DNA of 9,310 bases from assembly GCA_903821905.1 (NCBI GenBank), contig CAIJMQ010000096.1, positions 1 to 9,310 on the forward strand, given 5' to 3'. A program made the translations under genes and the position numbers. The stretch is from an uncultured bacterium (GTDB lineage: Bacteria; CAIJMQ01). Under the pieces are notes generated by a model. That model did no database searches, was not told the origin of the DNA, and saw only the letters and a list, made by a program, of their open reading frames with translations. Below are positions 2 to 8,102 of this stretch, piece by piece (within the stretch, counting starts at the first letter, position 1; the number at the start of each line of letters is the position of its first letter).

Positions 2-3000
2 AATGAAGAGCTTCTTAATTATTTTGAGGAATATGCTGATAGAAAAAAAGTTGTAGAGAAAGAAGCTGAAAGAGAGATTCGTGATTATCTCCAAGTAGAA
101 GAATTAAACCCCGGAGTGATTAAACTTGTAAAAGTATATATAGCAATGAAAAGAGAATTGCAGGAAGGTGATAAACTTTCAGGTCGTCACGGGAACAAGG
201 GAGTTATTTCTAAAGTTATACCAGAAGAAGATATGCCGTATCTTTCTGATGGTACACCTATAGATGTTGTACTTAATCCTCTTGGTGTTCCTTCCAGAAT
301 GAACCTGGGACAGATTCTAGAGACACATCTTGGGTGGGCAGCGAAGACATTGGGTTTTGAAGCAATCACTCCTATATTTAATGGGGCAAAAGAAGAAGAA
401 ATAAAGAATTGTTTGAAAGAAGCTAATCTTCCAGAAGATGGGAAAACTATTCTTTTTGACGGTAGAACAGGGAATCCCTTTCATCAGAGAGTAACTGTTG
501 GTTACATATATTTACTGAAACTACATCATTTAGTTGAAGACAAAATTCATGCAAGATCCATCGGTCCATATTCTCTAGTTACTCAACAACCTTTAGGTGG
601 TAAGGCACGTATGGGTGGGCAGAGATTTGGAGAAATGGAAGTGTGGGCTTTAGAAGCTTATGGAGCTGCCTATACTCTTCAAGAGATGTTAACAGTAAAA
701 AGCGACGATATTGAAGGAAGAACTAGAACTTATGAAGCTATAGTTAAAGGTGAAAATACTTTAACTTCTGGAATACCTGAATCCTTTAATGTTCTTGTTA
801 AAGAACTTCAAGGTCTTTGTCTGGATGTAAAAATAGAGAAAGCTAAAGAATCAACATTGAGTAGCGGTAGTTGGGAATGGCTGAACAAGGATAGAAGAGA
901 TGTAGCTTCTGAAATAAAGAGTATTGGATTAGGATTGGCTTCACCTCAGTTAATAAGGTCATGGTCTAAGGGGGAAGTGAAGAAACCTGAAACCATCAAT
1001 TATCGTACCTTTAGAGCTGAAAAGGGTGGGCTTTTCTGTGAAAAGATATTTGGTCCGACCAAAGATTGGGAATGTTATTGTGGTAAATATAAGAAAATAA
1101 AACACAAAGGTGTCGTATGCGATAGGTGCGGAGTGGAAGTTACAGAATCTAAAGTCAGACGCGAAAGAATGGGGCATCTAGAACTTGTTACACCTGTTGC
1201 TCACATTTGGATGTTCAGAGTTATACCTTCAGTAATGGGTACTCTATTAGAGATGACTCTACCCAGCTTAGAAAAAATTATTTATTATGATTCTTGGGTT
1301 GTTTTTGAACCTGGCAAAACTTCTTTAGAAAGACAACAAATACTTAGTGACTCAGAACTTGAAGAATACAGAAAAAAATATGGTGATACTTTTGAGGTGG
1401 GGATGGGTGCTCCTGCTTTAAAACGATTGTTAAGGGAACTAAATTTAGAAAAGTTGCGCGATGATTTACAGAAAAAAGAGAAAAACACTTCATCTGTAGC
1501 TGCAAGAAGAAAAATCAATAAGAGAAGAAAAATAGTAGAAGCATTGATAACTTCAGGTAATTCTCCGGAATGGATGATTTTAGACCGCGTTCCTGTTATC
1601 CCTCCCAATTTAAGGCCGCTAGTTCCTTTAGACAAAGGTGGGTTTGCAAGTTCCGATTTAAATGACTTATATCGAAGAGTTATAAATAGAAATAACAGAT
1701 TAAAGAGATTAATAGAACTTGATGCTCCTGAAATAATCTTACGCAATGAAAAGAGAATGCTACAAGAAGCTGTTGATGCGCTTTTTGATAATGGTAGAAG
1801 AGGAAGAGTTGTTGTAGGAGGCACTCAAGGAAGACCTTTAAAATCTTTAGCTGATACGCTCGGCGGTAAACAAGGGCGTTTCCGTCAGAACCTGTTAGGT
1901 AAAAGAGTCGATTATTCCGGCAGGTCTGTAATTGTTGTAGATCCCAAACTAAGATTGGATGAATGCGGTATACCCAAAGAAATGGCTTTAGAATTATTTC
2001 AACCTTTTATAATAAGAAATTTAAAAGAAAAAGGCTATTTCCATACTATAAAAGCAGGAAAGAAATTGATGGAGAAACGTACTCCTGAAGTTTGGGAAGC
2101 GTTGTCAGAAATAGTAAAAGACCACTTTGTGCTTTTGAATCGTGCACCTACTTTGCATCGACTTGGCATTCAAGCTTTCAGACCCAAGCTTACTGAAAGC
2201 AAAGCTATAAAAATACACCCGATGGTATGCACTGCTTTTGGTGCCGATTTCGACGGAGATACAATGAGCGTTTATGTCCCTTTATTTATGGAGACGCTCC
2301 TTGAAGCTAAACTACTCCTTTTATCAACAAACAGTCTATTCCGTCCTTCAGATGGTAGCCCTATACTACTTCCTACTCAAGATATCGTATTGGGAATCTA
2401 TTATCTTACAAAAATGGGAGTTAATGACGGGAAAGATTTAAGACTTTTCTCAAGTACCGAAGAGGCAAAGATGGCGTATGAACTTGGACAAATAACCCTT
2501 CAAACCCCGATTCTGTTAAGAGTGCCCGAACGCTTTGCATCAAGTTCGAAGAATGACAATTTAAAAACCACCGTAGGTAGAGCGATTTTTAACGAGATTT
2601 TACCCGAGGGCTCGGATTTTGTGAATGAAGGAATGACTAAGAGCAAATTATCTTCTTTTATTAGTGCCTTCATTAAAAAATTTGGTAAAGAGCAGACTTG
2701 TTTATTCTTAGATAATTTAAAAGAACTCGGTTTTCATTATGCTACCATGGGTGGTATTTCTATAGGTATAACTGATGTTGAGGTTCCACCAGATAAATGG
2801 GTAAAGATTGAAAAAGCGCGTAAAGAAGTGGAAAAATTTGAAAAACAGTATCATGAAGGAGTCATTACCTCTGGAGAAAGATATAACAAACTAATAGATA
2901 TGTGGAGCCGTGTCGGCGATGAAGTTGCAGAAGACATGTTCTCAGAATTGAAAAAACATCTATTTAATCCCATTCTACTTATGATGGAATCTGAAGCTAG

Positions 3001-4912
3001 AGGAAGTGCTCAACAAATAAGGCAATTGGGAGGAATGCGTGGTTTGATAGCTCGTCCACGTAAACAATTGACTGGTGCTATGGGTGAAATTATTGAATCT
3101 CCAATTACTACAAACTTTAGAGAAGGCCTATCTGTGCTGGAGTATTTCATCTCAACTCACGGTGGTAGAAAAGGTTTAGCCGATACTGCCCTTAAAACAT
3201 CTCAAGCAGGTTATTTAACACGTAGACTAGTGGATGTTGCTCAAAACGTGAGAATAATGGAAGAAGATTGTGGCACAGTTAATGGTGTAGTTATACATTC
3301 ATTAGAACTGGGGGGGAGAAATTTTATACCTCTTAAAGAAAGAATCGTTGGAAGAATAGCTTTGGAAGATGTGAAGTTACCTTTGTTGGATAATGTTATT
3401 GTAAAAGCAGGAGAAGAAATCACGGAAGAAATTGCAGCAGCTATTGAAGAAGCTGAAATAGAAGAAGTTTCTATTCGCTCGGTTCTAACATGTCAGAGCA
3501 AAGAAGGACTTTGCAAAAAGTGTTATGGCAAAGATTTAGCTACTGGCGAAACGGTTGCTATAGGCCAAGCAGTTGGTATAATGGCGGCTCAATCTATCGG
3601 AGAACCTGGAACTCAGCTTACACTTCGTACTTTCCATATAGGAGGTACAGCTTCGCGCATAGTAGGAGAATCACATTATGCTGCTCAAGCAGATGGTATA
3701 GTCAGATTTAAAAATCTTAATGTAACAAAGAATAGTGAAGGCAATCTGATGGTACTAAACAGAAACGGTGGGATAATACTGGAAGATGAAGAAGGTAATA
3801 AAATAGAAACTTATTCTATTAATGTGGGTAGTATTCTTCATGTGAGTGATGGACAGAAAGTAAAAGGTAAAGATACTATAGTGCGTTGGGACCCATATAC
3901 TCGCCCATTCCTCTCAGAGATTAAAGGGAAAGTTGAATTCAAAGACATCATTAGGGGCATAACTATGAAAGATGGGCTGAATCGTGAGACTAATATTAAA
4001 GAAAAAGTTATCATAGAACATCGTGCAGCGCTTCATCCTCAGATTGTAGTAAAAGATAATTCCGGTCAATCCAGGTACTATCCTTTACCTACTAATGCTC
4101 ATATAACTGTAAATGCAGGTGAAGAAGTAAAAATTGGTACTCTTTTAGCGAAAACTTCTAGAGAAGTTGTAAAAGCGACAGATATCACTGGAGGGTTACC
4201 TAGAGTAGCGGAATTATTCGAAACTAGAAAGCCAAAGAATCCATCTGTAGTTACAGAGATAGATGGGCGCGTTAAAGAAATAATTATGGAAGGTAACGTA
4301 AAAGATGTTGTTATTGAAGGAGAAAATGAGACGAGAAGATATGCCATACCTCATGGTAAGCATGTTGAAGTAGATGTGGGGGATTGGGTCACAGCAGGGC
4401 AGAAGTTAACTGATGGACCTGCTGTACTTCAAGAAATACTGAGAATTGAGGGAGAAAGAAGACTTCAGCAATATCTTGTTGATGAAATACAAGAAGTTTA
4501 TCGGTTACAGGGAGTTAAAATTAATGATAAACATATAGAAACAATTGTAAGGCAAATGCTTATGAAAGTTCAAATAGAAGATCCCGGTAATACATCTTTC
4601 CTTTGGGGAGATCAGGTAGAGAAACTGGACTTCCAGCAAGAAAATGAGAAGGTTTCTTCTTCTGGTGGGAAACTAGCTAAAGGACGTCCACTTGTTTTGG
4701 GGATTACCAAAGCTTCTCTCGCTTCGTCATCATTTATTTCTGCAGCTTCTTTCCAGGAAACTCCTAGAGTTTTAACCAGATCAGCAATCTTTGGAAGGAA
4801 AGATGAACTAAAGGGGTTGAAAGAAAATCTAATGATTGGTAAACTAATCCCTGCTGGAACAGGTTTGAAAGAACACAGGGAAATTGAGGTGATAAAAAAT
4901 GCCGACACTTAA
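2..4912 (+). CDS. rpoBC: Fused RNA polymerase beta-beta' subunit (RpoB C-terminus joined to complete RpoC), 5' end outside window
   Basis: This encodes the two large subunits of DNA-dependent RNA polymerase in one frame. The frame is open from nt 2, so the true start lies upstream; GTG at 116 is internal. The beta part (to about nt 835) shows [12 protein letters not shown] with both active-site lysines, [11 protein letters not shown], and the beta C-terminal block ending [10 protein letters not shown]. The beta' part begins with [10 protein letters not shown] at about 938. It has a first zinc site (Cys codons at 1073, 1079, 1118, 1127), the lid near 1631-1655, [10 protein letters not shown], the catalytic ADFDGD (2243-2260), the F-loop (about 2990-3045), the bridge helix (about 3134-3241), and a second zinc site (Cys at 3269, 3491, 3512, 3521). 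The trigger loop starts near 3581 and is split by an SI3-like insertion (about 3668-4175), followed by [14 protein letters not shown] and the conserved C-terminus ending [17 protein letters not shown]. There is no stop and no in-frame ATG or GTG between the parts. Key substitutions include Gly for Asn before ADFDGD. The identity is certain; whether the product is cleaved is unknown. Confidence 0.97.
4886..4893 (+). promoter_or_regulatory. Extended Shine-Dalgarno for rpsL, inside the rpoC end
   Basis: GAGGTGAT is fully complementary to a typical 16S rRNA 3' end (AUCACCUC) and sits 5 nt before the rpsL ATG. The same bases encode the last residues of the beta-beta' fusion (E-V-I-K-N region), so the end of rpoC doubles as the initiation site of rpsL. 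This suggests translational coupling. The 17-nt block TGAGGTGATAAAAAATG recurs exactly at the rpsG start. Confidence 0.85.
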
Positions 4913-5909: not shown

Positions 5910-8102
5910 ATGAAAAAGGAAGTTTTTTTACAAAAAGTTAGAAATATCGGTATCTTTGCACACATTGATGCGGGGAAAACTACTATTAGTGAGCGGATAC
6001 TTTACTATACAGGTAAAATCCATAAGATGGGAGAAGTCCATGAAGGTACTACTACTATGGATTGGATGCCGCAAGAAAGAGAAAGAGGAGTTACTATTAC
6101 TGCTGCGGCTATTACCTGTTTTTGGAAGGACCATCGGATAAATATAATTGATACGCCTGGCCATGTAGATTTTACTGCGGAAGTAGAAAGGTCCTTGAGA
6201 GTTTTAGACGGAGCAGTAGCTGTATTCAGTGGCGTTGAAGGAGTAGAGCCACAATCTGAAACAGTATGGAATCAGGCAAATAGGCACAATGTTTCTAGAA
6301 TTGCTTTCATAAATAAGATGGACAGAGAAGGAGCAGATTACAAAGCAGTAGTTGAGGAAATGGAGAAGAAACTAAACGCTCATGTTTTAGTTTTACAGTT
6401 GCCAATTGGAACAGGTTCTAAGTTTTCAGGAGCGATTGATATAGTTAGTTTTAAAGAACTTTTATTTGATGAAGAAGCAGGGGAAGGTTACAAAATAACA
6501 GACATATCTGAGAAGCACAAGGCAAGGGCTTTAAAATACAGAGAGCTTTTGATAGAAAAATTAGCTGAGGTCAGTGATGAAATTATGCATAAGTTTGTTC
6601 ACGGAGAAAAAGTAGAAGAACAGTTGTTACAAGAAACGATAAGAAAAGCAACAATCAAAGATAAAATGGTACCGGTTCTATGTGGTACAGCATTGAAAAA
6701 CAAAGGTGTTCAACCTCTTCTTGATGCTATAGTAAAATATCTTCCTTCACCTTTAGATGTTCCGCCGGTTACAGGTAAGAATCCTGTATCTGGACAAGAA
6801 GAAGAAAGAAAAGCATCTGTAGATGAACCTTTTTCTGCGCTAGCTTTTAAAATAGTCACTGACCCTTTTACGGGACGTCTTACTTACATAAGGATTTACT
6901 CGGGACAAATAGAAGTAGGGCAGAAGATTTATGATGTTGCCAAGGGAAAAGCTGAGAAGATACAAAGAATATTTCTTATGCATGCTAATAAAAGAGAAGA
7001 AATAAAGGAAGCTTCGGCTGGTGAAATTGTTGTTGTTGTAGGATTGCAGGCCACTACTACTGGAGATACTGTTTGCGATGAGGAACATCCGATCATTCTG
7101 GAACGATTAACTTTCCCGGAACCTGTAATTTTTGTTCGAATTGAACCTGCCAATAAACAGGAAGGAGAAAAAATGCAGCAGGTCTTGAGAAAACTGGAAG
7201 AGGAAGACCCAACCTTTAAAGTTTCCCAAGATCAAGAAACAGGACAAACAATTATTTCTGGGATGGGAGAATTTCATCTTTTGGTAATTACTCAGAGAAT
7301 ATTAGAAGAGTTTAAAGTTAATGCCAATGTAGGAAAACCTCAAGTAACGTATAGGGAGAATATTAATGTTGAAGCAGAGGGAGAGGGTAAATATATACGT
7401 CAGAGTGGAGGAAGAGGACAGTATGGGCATGTTTTATTGAGAATAGAACCTATTACTTTTTCTGAAAAACATCTTGACGCTTCTTCTCATACAAAAGATC
7501 ATAAAAAGACATCGAAGACACATAAAACAGATAAGGTTATCTCCGAAGAAGATATTCGAGCAGGTAAAACTTTTGAATTCATAAACGATATAAAATATGG
7601 GACCATACCTTCAAATTTTATTTCATCAATAGAGGATGGAGTAAAAGACGCTATGAGAAGCGGAATAGTCGCTGGTTATCCCGTAATTAATGTTAGAATT
7701 ATTTTAACCGATGGTTCTTATCATGAAGTTGATTCTTCAGATGTTGCTTTTCATATAGCAGCATCTATGGCTTTTAAAGATGCTATGGCAAAAGCAAAAC
7801 CGCATCTCTTAGAACCTTTCATGAAAGCAGAAGTAGTAGCTCCTGAAGAATATATGGGAGAAATTTTAGCAGACCTTAATGTTAAGAAAGCAGAAATTAA
7901 TGAAATTAAACATCGTGGTGGCCTTATTATAATTACAGTTTCTGTCGCTTTGGCTGAAATGTTTGGGTATGCTACAACCTTAAGGTCCTTGACTAAAGGC
8001 CGCGGTTCTTATATCATGGAATTTTCAAAATATGGAAAAGTTTCTGCACAAAAAGAGAAACAGATACTCCATGTGAATAATAATTCTCAAAATGGAGGGT
8101 AA
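5910..8102 (+). CDS. fusA: Translation elongation factor G with domain IV insertion
   Basis: EF-G is the cytosolic GTPase that drives tRNA-mRNA translocation and, with RRF, ribosome recycling. The G domain is intact: AHIDAGKTT (residues 17-25), switch I through RERGVTI (57-63), DTPGH (81-85) and NKMD (135-138). Domain II follows from about residue 300, and domain III contains GMGEFHLL (about 452-458), where GELHLE/D is usual. Domain IV has the tip loop SGGRGQYGH and later SYHEVDSSD, and domain V has AEMFGYATTLRS. At 730 residues it is about 30 longer than typical bacterial EF-G (about 690-704). The excess is a His/Lys/Thr-rich insertion at residues about 517-552. The ATG at 5910 gives the usual N-terminal length before RNIGI, and TGA at 5877 blocks extension; no well-spaced Shine-Dalgarno is visible. 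The C-terminal tail NNNSQNGG encodes the tuf ribosome-binding site. Canonical EF-G is favoured over EF-G2 paralogues by its place between rpsG and tuf. Confidence 0.96.
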   Translation: MKKEVFLQKVRNIGIFAHIDAGKTTISERILYYTGKIHKMGEVHEGTTTMDWMPQERERGVTITAAAITCFWKDHRINIIDTPGHVDFTAEVERSLRVLDGAVAVFSGVEGVEPQSETVWNQANRHNVSRIAFINKMDREGADYKAVVEEMEKKLNAHVLVLQLPIGTGSKFSGAIDIVSFKELLFDEEAGEGYKITDISEKHKARALKYRELLIEKLAEVSDEIMHKFVHGEKVEEQLLQETIRKATIKDKMVPVLCGTALKNKGVQPLLDAIVKYLPSPLDVPPVTGKNPVSGQEEERKASVDEPFSALAFKIVTDPFTGRLTYIRIYSGQIEVGQKIYDVAKGKAEKIQRIFLMHANKREEIKEASAGEIVVVVGLQATTTGDTVCDEEHPIILERLTFPEPVIFVRIEPANKQEGEKMQQVLRKLEEEDPTFKVSQDQETGQTIISGMGEFHLLVITQRILEEFKVNANVGKPQVTYRENINVEAEGEGKYIRQSGGRGQYGHVLLRIEPITFSEKHLDASSHTKDHKKTSKTHKTDKVISEEDIRAGKTFEFINDIKYGTIPSNFISSIEDGVKDAMRSGIVAGYPVINVRIILTDGSYHEVDSSDVAFHIAASMAFKDAMAKAKPHLLEPFMKAEVVAPEEYMGEILADLNVKKAEINEIKHRGGLIIITVSVALAEMFGYATTLRSLTKGRGSYIMEFSKYGKVSAQKEKQILHVNNNSQNGG
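8094..8099 (+). promoter_or_regulatory. Shine-Dalgarno for tuf, encoded by the fusA 3' end
   Basis: GGAGGG lies 10 nt before the tuf ATG and ends immediately before the fusA stop codon. It encodes the terminal Gly-Gly of EF-G. The overlap of signal and coding sequence, with only 7 nt between the fusA stop and the tuf start, suggests translational coupling. It is a different Shine-Dalgarno form from the GAGGTGAT module of rpsL and rpsG. Confidence 0.75.

Follow-up and report, generated by a model that had tools for sequence, protein, structure and literature searches.

The stretch of DNA analysed here (the window, 9,310 nucleotides) spans positions 1 to 9,310 of contig CAIJMQ010000096.1, from assembly GCA_903821905.1 of an uncultured bacterium of the GTDB lineage CAIJMQ01. 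Its plus strand carries at 2–4912 the 3' part of an RNA polymerase gene in which rpoB and rpoC are joined in a single in-frame fusion. The frame of 1636 amino acids (aa) is open at the 5' edge of the window, starts within the RpoB C-terminus, crosses the junction and ends with the whole of RpoC (beta'). The RpoC part matches the NCBIfam rpoC model TIGR02386 over the whole protein, at 1656.3 bits against a cut-off of 963.5. At the position of Escherichia coli beta' Asn458, however, it has glycine. According to Makinen et al. 2021 (PMC7862312), three residues that touch the substrate ribose, Arg425, Asn458 and Gln929, are conserved universally, yet Asn458 is absent from the window and from all genomes of its family, which have Gly instead. 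In the open-access literature we found no paper mentioning the resulting motif, GADFDGD. Here, we report that Gly458 is real, rare and fixed in one small bacterial family, and that the loss of Asn458 is rare, yet repeated, in cells showing no other matching RNA polymerase.

Results

Alignment to E. coli K-12 RpoC places the codon GGT at 2240–2242 (+) on Asn458 and confirms the motif, within 2222–2275, as the first-pass annotation had read it. The catalytic centre around the glycine is otherwise canonical. The metal-A motif at 2240–2260 (+) keeps its three catalytic aspartates (Asp460, Asp462 and Asp464), and the two neighbouring residues that had been called retained, the Arg of NRAPT and the Gln of TQD, match E. 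coli Arg425 and Gln504. The former, the main determinant of ribose selectivity, lies at 2141–2143 (+), 33 residues upstream of the Gly without a gap; the latter lies at 2378–2380 (+), by gap-free codon count from 2240. Both ribose contacts other than Asn458, Arg425 and the trigger-loop Gln929, are present in the window RpoC.

The family belongs to Ratteibacteria/Omnitrophota, and all four of its genomes, from two genera, have Gly458. The three other genomes represent another genus, were assembled independently and use the codons GGT, GGC and GGC; two of their contigs are JAQURI010000023.1 (Candidatus Ratteibacteria) and JAHJCU010000010.1 (Candidatus Omnitrophota). In the sister family of the same class, Asn is found in 3/3 genomes (AAT, AAT and AAC), and an RpoC tree computed with the motif column masked joins the two families as sisters with top support. 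This answers the earlier question of whether Gly is fixed in the clade. An error of assembly or sequencing (the first-pass annotation had already judged a single sequencing error unlikely), conceivable for a single contig of a draft genome, is thereby refuted, as is a mutation in this genome alone, given that the same residue appears in four genomes and two genera by two codons. The window's genome, estimated to be 84% complete, contains one rpoC match, and no second, Asn-bearing rpoC copy was found in it; the three relatives likewise have one match each.

The fusion of rpoB and rpoC is present in all seven genomes of the class, in both families, with open frames of 2600–2691 aa in the relatives. 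Because the sister family combines the fusion with Asn, the fusion and the change from Asn to Gly are separate events and the former does not explain the latter. Our literature search found no report of an rpoB–rpoC fusion in the Ratteibacteria group. The beta/beta' fusion models PRK09603 and PRK14844, which we take to represent the fused RpoBC of Helicobacter and Wolbachia, match the window's partial frame with scores under their cut-offs; the likeness lies in the single beta–beta' polypeptide. An extra RpoC segment of 8–11 residues (VLGAPGEAQTS in one relative's alignment) occurs in the three family relatives and is missing from the window (after 2428).

The residues following the motif, TMSVY in place of the usual QMAVH, were considered as part of the Asn-to-Gly change and rejected. 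T465 and S467 also occur in the Asn-bearing sister family and hence predate the change, and position 469, Tyr in the window, is His in the remaining members of the Gly family.

The first-pass annotation had held that this position is almost invariably Asn. As a statement of frequency this stands. In a sample of 386 genomes spread over bacteria, a motif search open to all codons found matches in 362, and among approximately 150 matches listed, RpoC outside the Ratteibacteria family had Asn in every case. Within this sample the Gly motif in RpoC was restricted to the family; six further matches to the Gly pattern were not RpoC. As a rule it does not stand, since Gly has replaced Asn repeatedly in bacteria and archaea. 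Gly was found in 9 of the 123 Chloroflexota genomes with a match, in 1 of 123 for Patescibacteria (the genome chosen as the search centre) and in 3 of 138 archaea around a Gly-bearing Thermococci record, all three from one clade. Ser or any residue other than Asn and Gly was not seen among the RpoC-type matches of these three samples. Across 84,980 species genomes, a pattern scan for codons that start with C, G or T, to which Ser, Thr and Lys codons starting with A are invisible, matched at least 117 stretches; this undercounts the carriers. Among the matches listed, the context identifies about 100 as beta' or archaeal A'; most of these have Gly, some Ala and a few His or Tyr.

Most of the 50 carriers checked for extra copies have one matching copy only. 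These single-copy carriers include Chloroflexota, Armatimonadota, Patescibacteria, DPANN archaea, Aerophobetes, Holosporales and the Ratteibacteria family, with Gly, less often Ala, at position 458 of the only detected beta' (or archaeal A'). Asn458 is hence not a defining feature of RpoC. About a dozen of the 50 combine a normal Asn copy with a diverged second beta' that has Gly or Ala. The window's gene does not appear to be such a specialised second paralogue, given that no Asn-bearing copy was found elsewhere in its genome at 84% completeness. A tree of 175 bacterial RpoCs requires a minimum of 14 switches between Asn and non-Asn, with 13 independent contrasts on strongly supported branches, and the 50 archaeal rows require a minimum of 5; all of these trees were built with FastTree and contain some long branches, which makes the change counts approximate.

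Two side observations were made. The diverged second beta'-like genes just mentioned, whose metal-A motif has Gly or Ala, were seen at 11 loci in genomes that also have a normal Asn rpoC, and a diverged protein encoded on one short contig looks like a distant or phage-like RNA polymerase.

The first-pass annotation had suggested that another residue may compensate for the missing side chain. In the Gly family, beta' Arg425, Gln504, Arg731, Gln929, Arg933 and His936 are the E. coli residues, as are beta Arg678, Glu813, Asp814, Lys1065, Lys1073 and Arg1106; for beta residues upstream of the window start, the sequences of the relatives were used. The checked contacts are thus unchanged or, where they differ from E. 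coli (M932L, beta D1240E and beta' 1106, I to H), common to the Asn-bearing sister family, with the exception of A791S, which occurs in the window's genome alone. Arg425 is kept in 67/67 non-Asn and 115/115 Asn bacterial rows. Changes at positions with at least 90% conservation that are confined to the family are E162D, L221R, L368I, A476T, M484I/L and D806N (usual bacterial residue first). No residue stands out as co-varying with the loss of Asn in 2922 residue-by-column tests over the 13 contrasts when multiplicity is allowed for. The strongest column, 487, has Ser in 45% of the Asn rows versus 13% of the non-Asn rows, which is not convincing.

Downstream of the fusion the window carries rpsL, rpsG, fusA and tuf. 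In domain IV of the fusA product EF-G (approximately 7446–7563), about 30 additional residues form a charged insert rich in His and Lys. The two Gly-family relatives that could be read have a comparable, though diverged, insert, and none is present in two sister-family genomes.

Discussion

We consider it likely, at roughly 75%, that the window encodes an ordinary working multisubunit RNA polymerase with a sole beta' fused to beta, in which Gly458 is ancestral to the family and which can do without the Asn side chain. A family ancestor in Ratteibacteria would have replaced Asn458 by Gly and thereby given up the hydrogen bonds that the Asn side chain makes to the ribose hydroxyls of an incoming nucleoside triphosphate (NTP). 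Ribose recognition would then be left to Arg425 for the 2'-OH and to the trigger-loop Gln929 for the 3'-OH, both retained, and the space vacated by Asn is probably filled by water. That the Gly458 enzyme synthesizes RNA is suggested by its being the sole copy and by its conservation. Such an enzyme should work, with NTP affinity, elongation rate or discrimination against deoxynucleotides at most modestly reduced. On the simplest reading the Asn side chain is helpful rather than essential, Arg425 and Gln929 suffice, and some lineages lost Asn.

The E. coli mutant points in the same direction. N458S loses selectivity 4-fold at binding and gains 1.5-fold at incorporation, whereas R425K loses 17- and 25-fold at the two steps, which makes Arg425 the main determinant (PMC7862312). 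Given the small effect of N458S and the retained Arg425, altered sugar selectivity of the window enzyme, as proposed in the first-pass annotation, is possible but would be expected to be modest. In yeast, the Rpb1 substitution N479S affects the corresponding residue; elongation in vitro is severely impaired, but the cells live (PMC3325174). Both mutants share the loss of the Asn side chain with the window protein; they are, however, engineered or selected and have Ser, not a naturally fixed Gly. Plant Pol IV (NRPD1) and Pol V (NRPE1) are natural polymerases without Asn before the DFDGD core and still need the metal-A site (PMC2605557), but they are specialised extra polymerases with many active-site changes, unlike the only detected and otherwise canonical polymerase of the window's cell. 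Close parallels are the Gly458 RpoCs of Chloroflexota, Armatimonadota, Patescibacteria and Aerophobetes and the A' of DPANN archaea, with the same swap in the only detected copy and independent origins. With canonical RpoC (E. coli, TIGR02386) the window protein shares full-length homology, the metal-A triad, Arg425, Gln504, the bridge helix and the trigger-loop residues Gln929, Arg933 and His936, and it differs in Gly458 and in the fusion to beta.

Several points weigh against a dispensable Asn. The mutant measured in E. coli is Ser and the natural state here is Gly, and the family-only L221R, A476T, M484I/L and D806N could compensate in this lineage alone. Moreover, the AlphaFold model of the domain has a predicted local distance difference test (pLDDT) score below 50 at the motif and is unreliable at the loop, so that no conclusion on loop geometry is drawn from it. 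True compensation, with another residue taking over the role of Asn458, is nevertheless improbable. A few family-only changes do fall at conserved positions, with A476T and M484I/L the closest in sequence, but they do not generally recur in other Gly lineages and none of the tests over the independent contrasts stood out. Relaxed, nearly neutral drift, with Asn lost in small, slow-growing genomes where polymerase speed matters little, is a tentative possibility of more substance. Many carriers are indeed small (0.6–1.5 Mb in the window's family, Patescibacteria and DPANN), although the Armatimonadota and several Chloroflexota carriers have genomes of 3–5.6 Mb, the other catalytic positions are strictly conserved and the sister family keeps Asn at a similar genome size.

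Gly may instead have been selected for a changed substrate chemistry at the ribose hydroxyls, for example to evade a chain-terminating nucleotide analogue or to tune elongation speed. We regard this as unlikely. It would fit the repeated, independent origins of Gly, the place of Asn458 among the three ribose-contacting residues and the finding that the all-codon surveys saw only Asn or Gly in RpoC and not the one-step neighbour Ser, even though Asn to Gly takes two base changes. Possibly an unusual backbone angle at the turn is tolerated best by Asn and Gly, a candidate reason for the recurrence of Gly. The carriers with names have no obvious single habitat or lifestyle in common. Viperin-made chain terminators were considered as the selective agent and rejected, as the window's genome and seven others gave only generic radical-SAM matches and no prokaryotic viperin, which makes such nucleotides, over the model cut-off. 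It is likewise doubtful that the replacement of Asn458 in some twenty independent bacterial and archaeal lineages, mostly by Gly, benefits the polymerase through altered recognition of the ribose or 3'-OH (speed, fidelity or resistance to sugar-modified nucleotide inhibitors), as a convergent, functionally distinct class of active site.

The claim of a practically invariant Asn at this position needs softening. Gly458 polymerases are natural variants at hand for probing the role of the Asn. The repeated natural loss of Asn458 in sole-copy RNA polymerases that keep Arg425 and Gln929, as in the Ratteibacteria family, provides independent evolutionary support for Arg425 doing most of the sugar selection.
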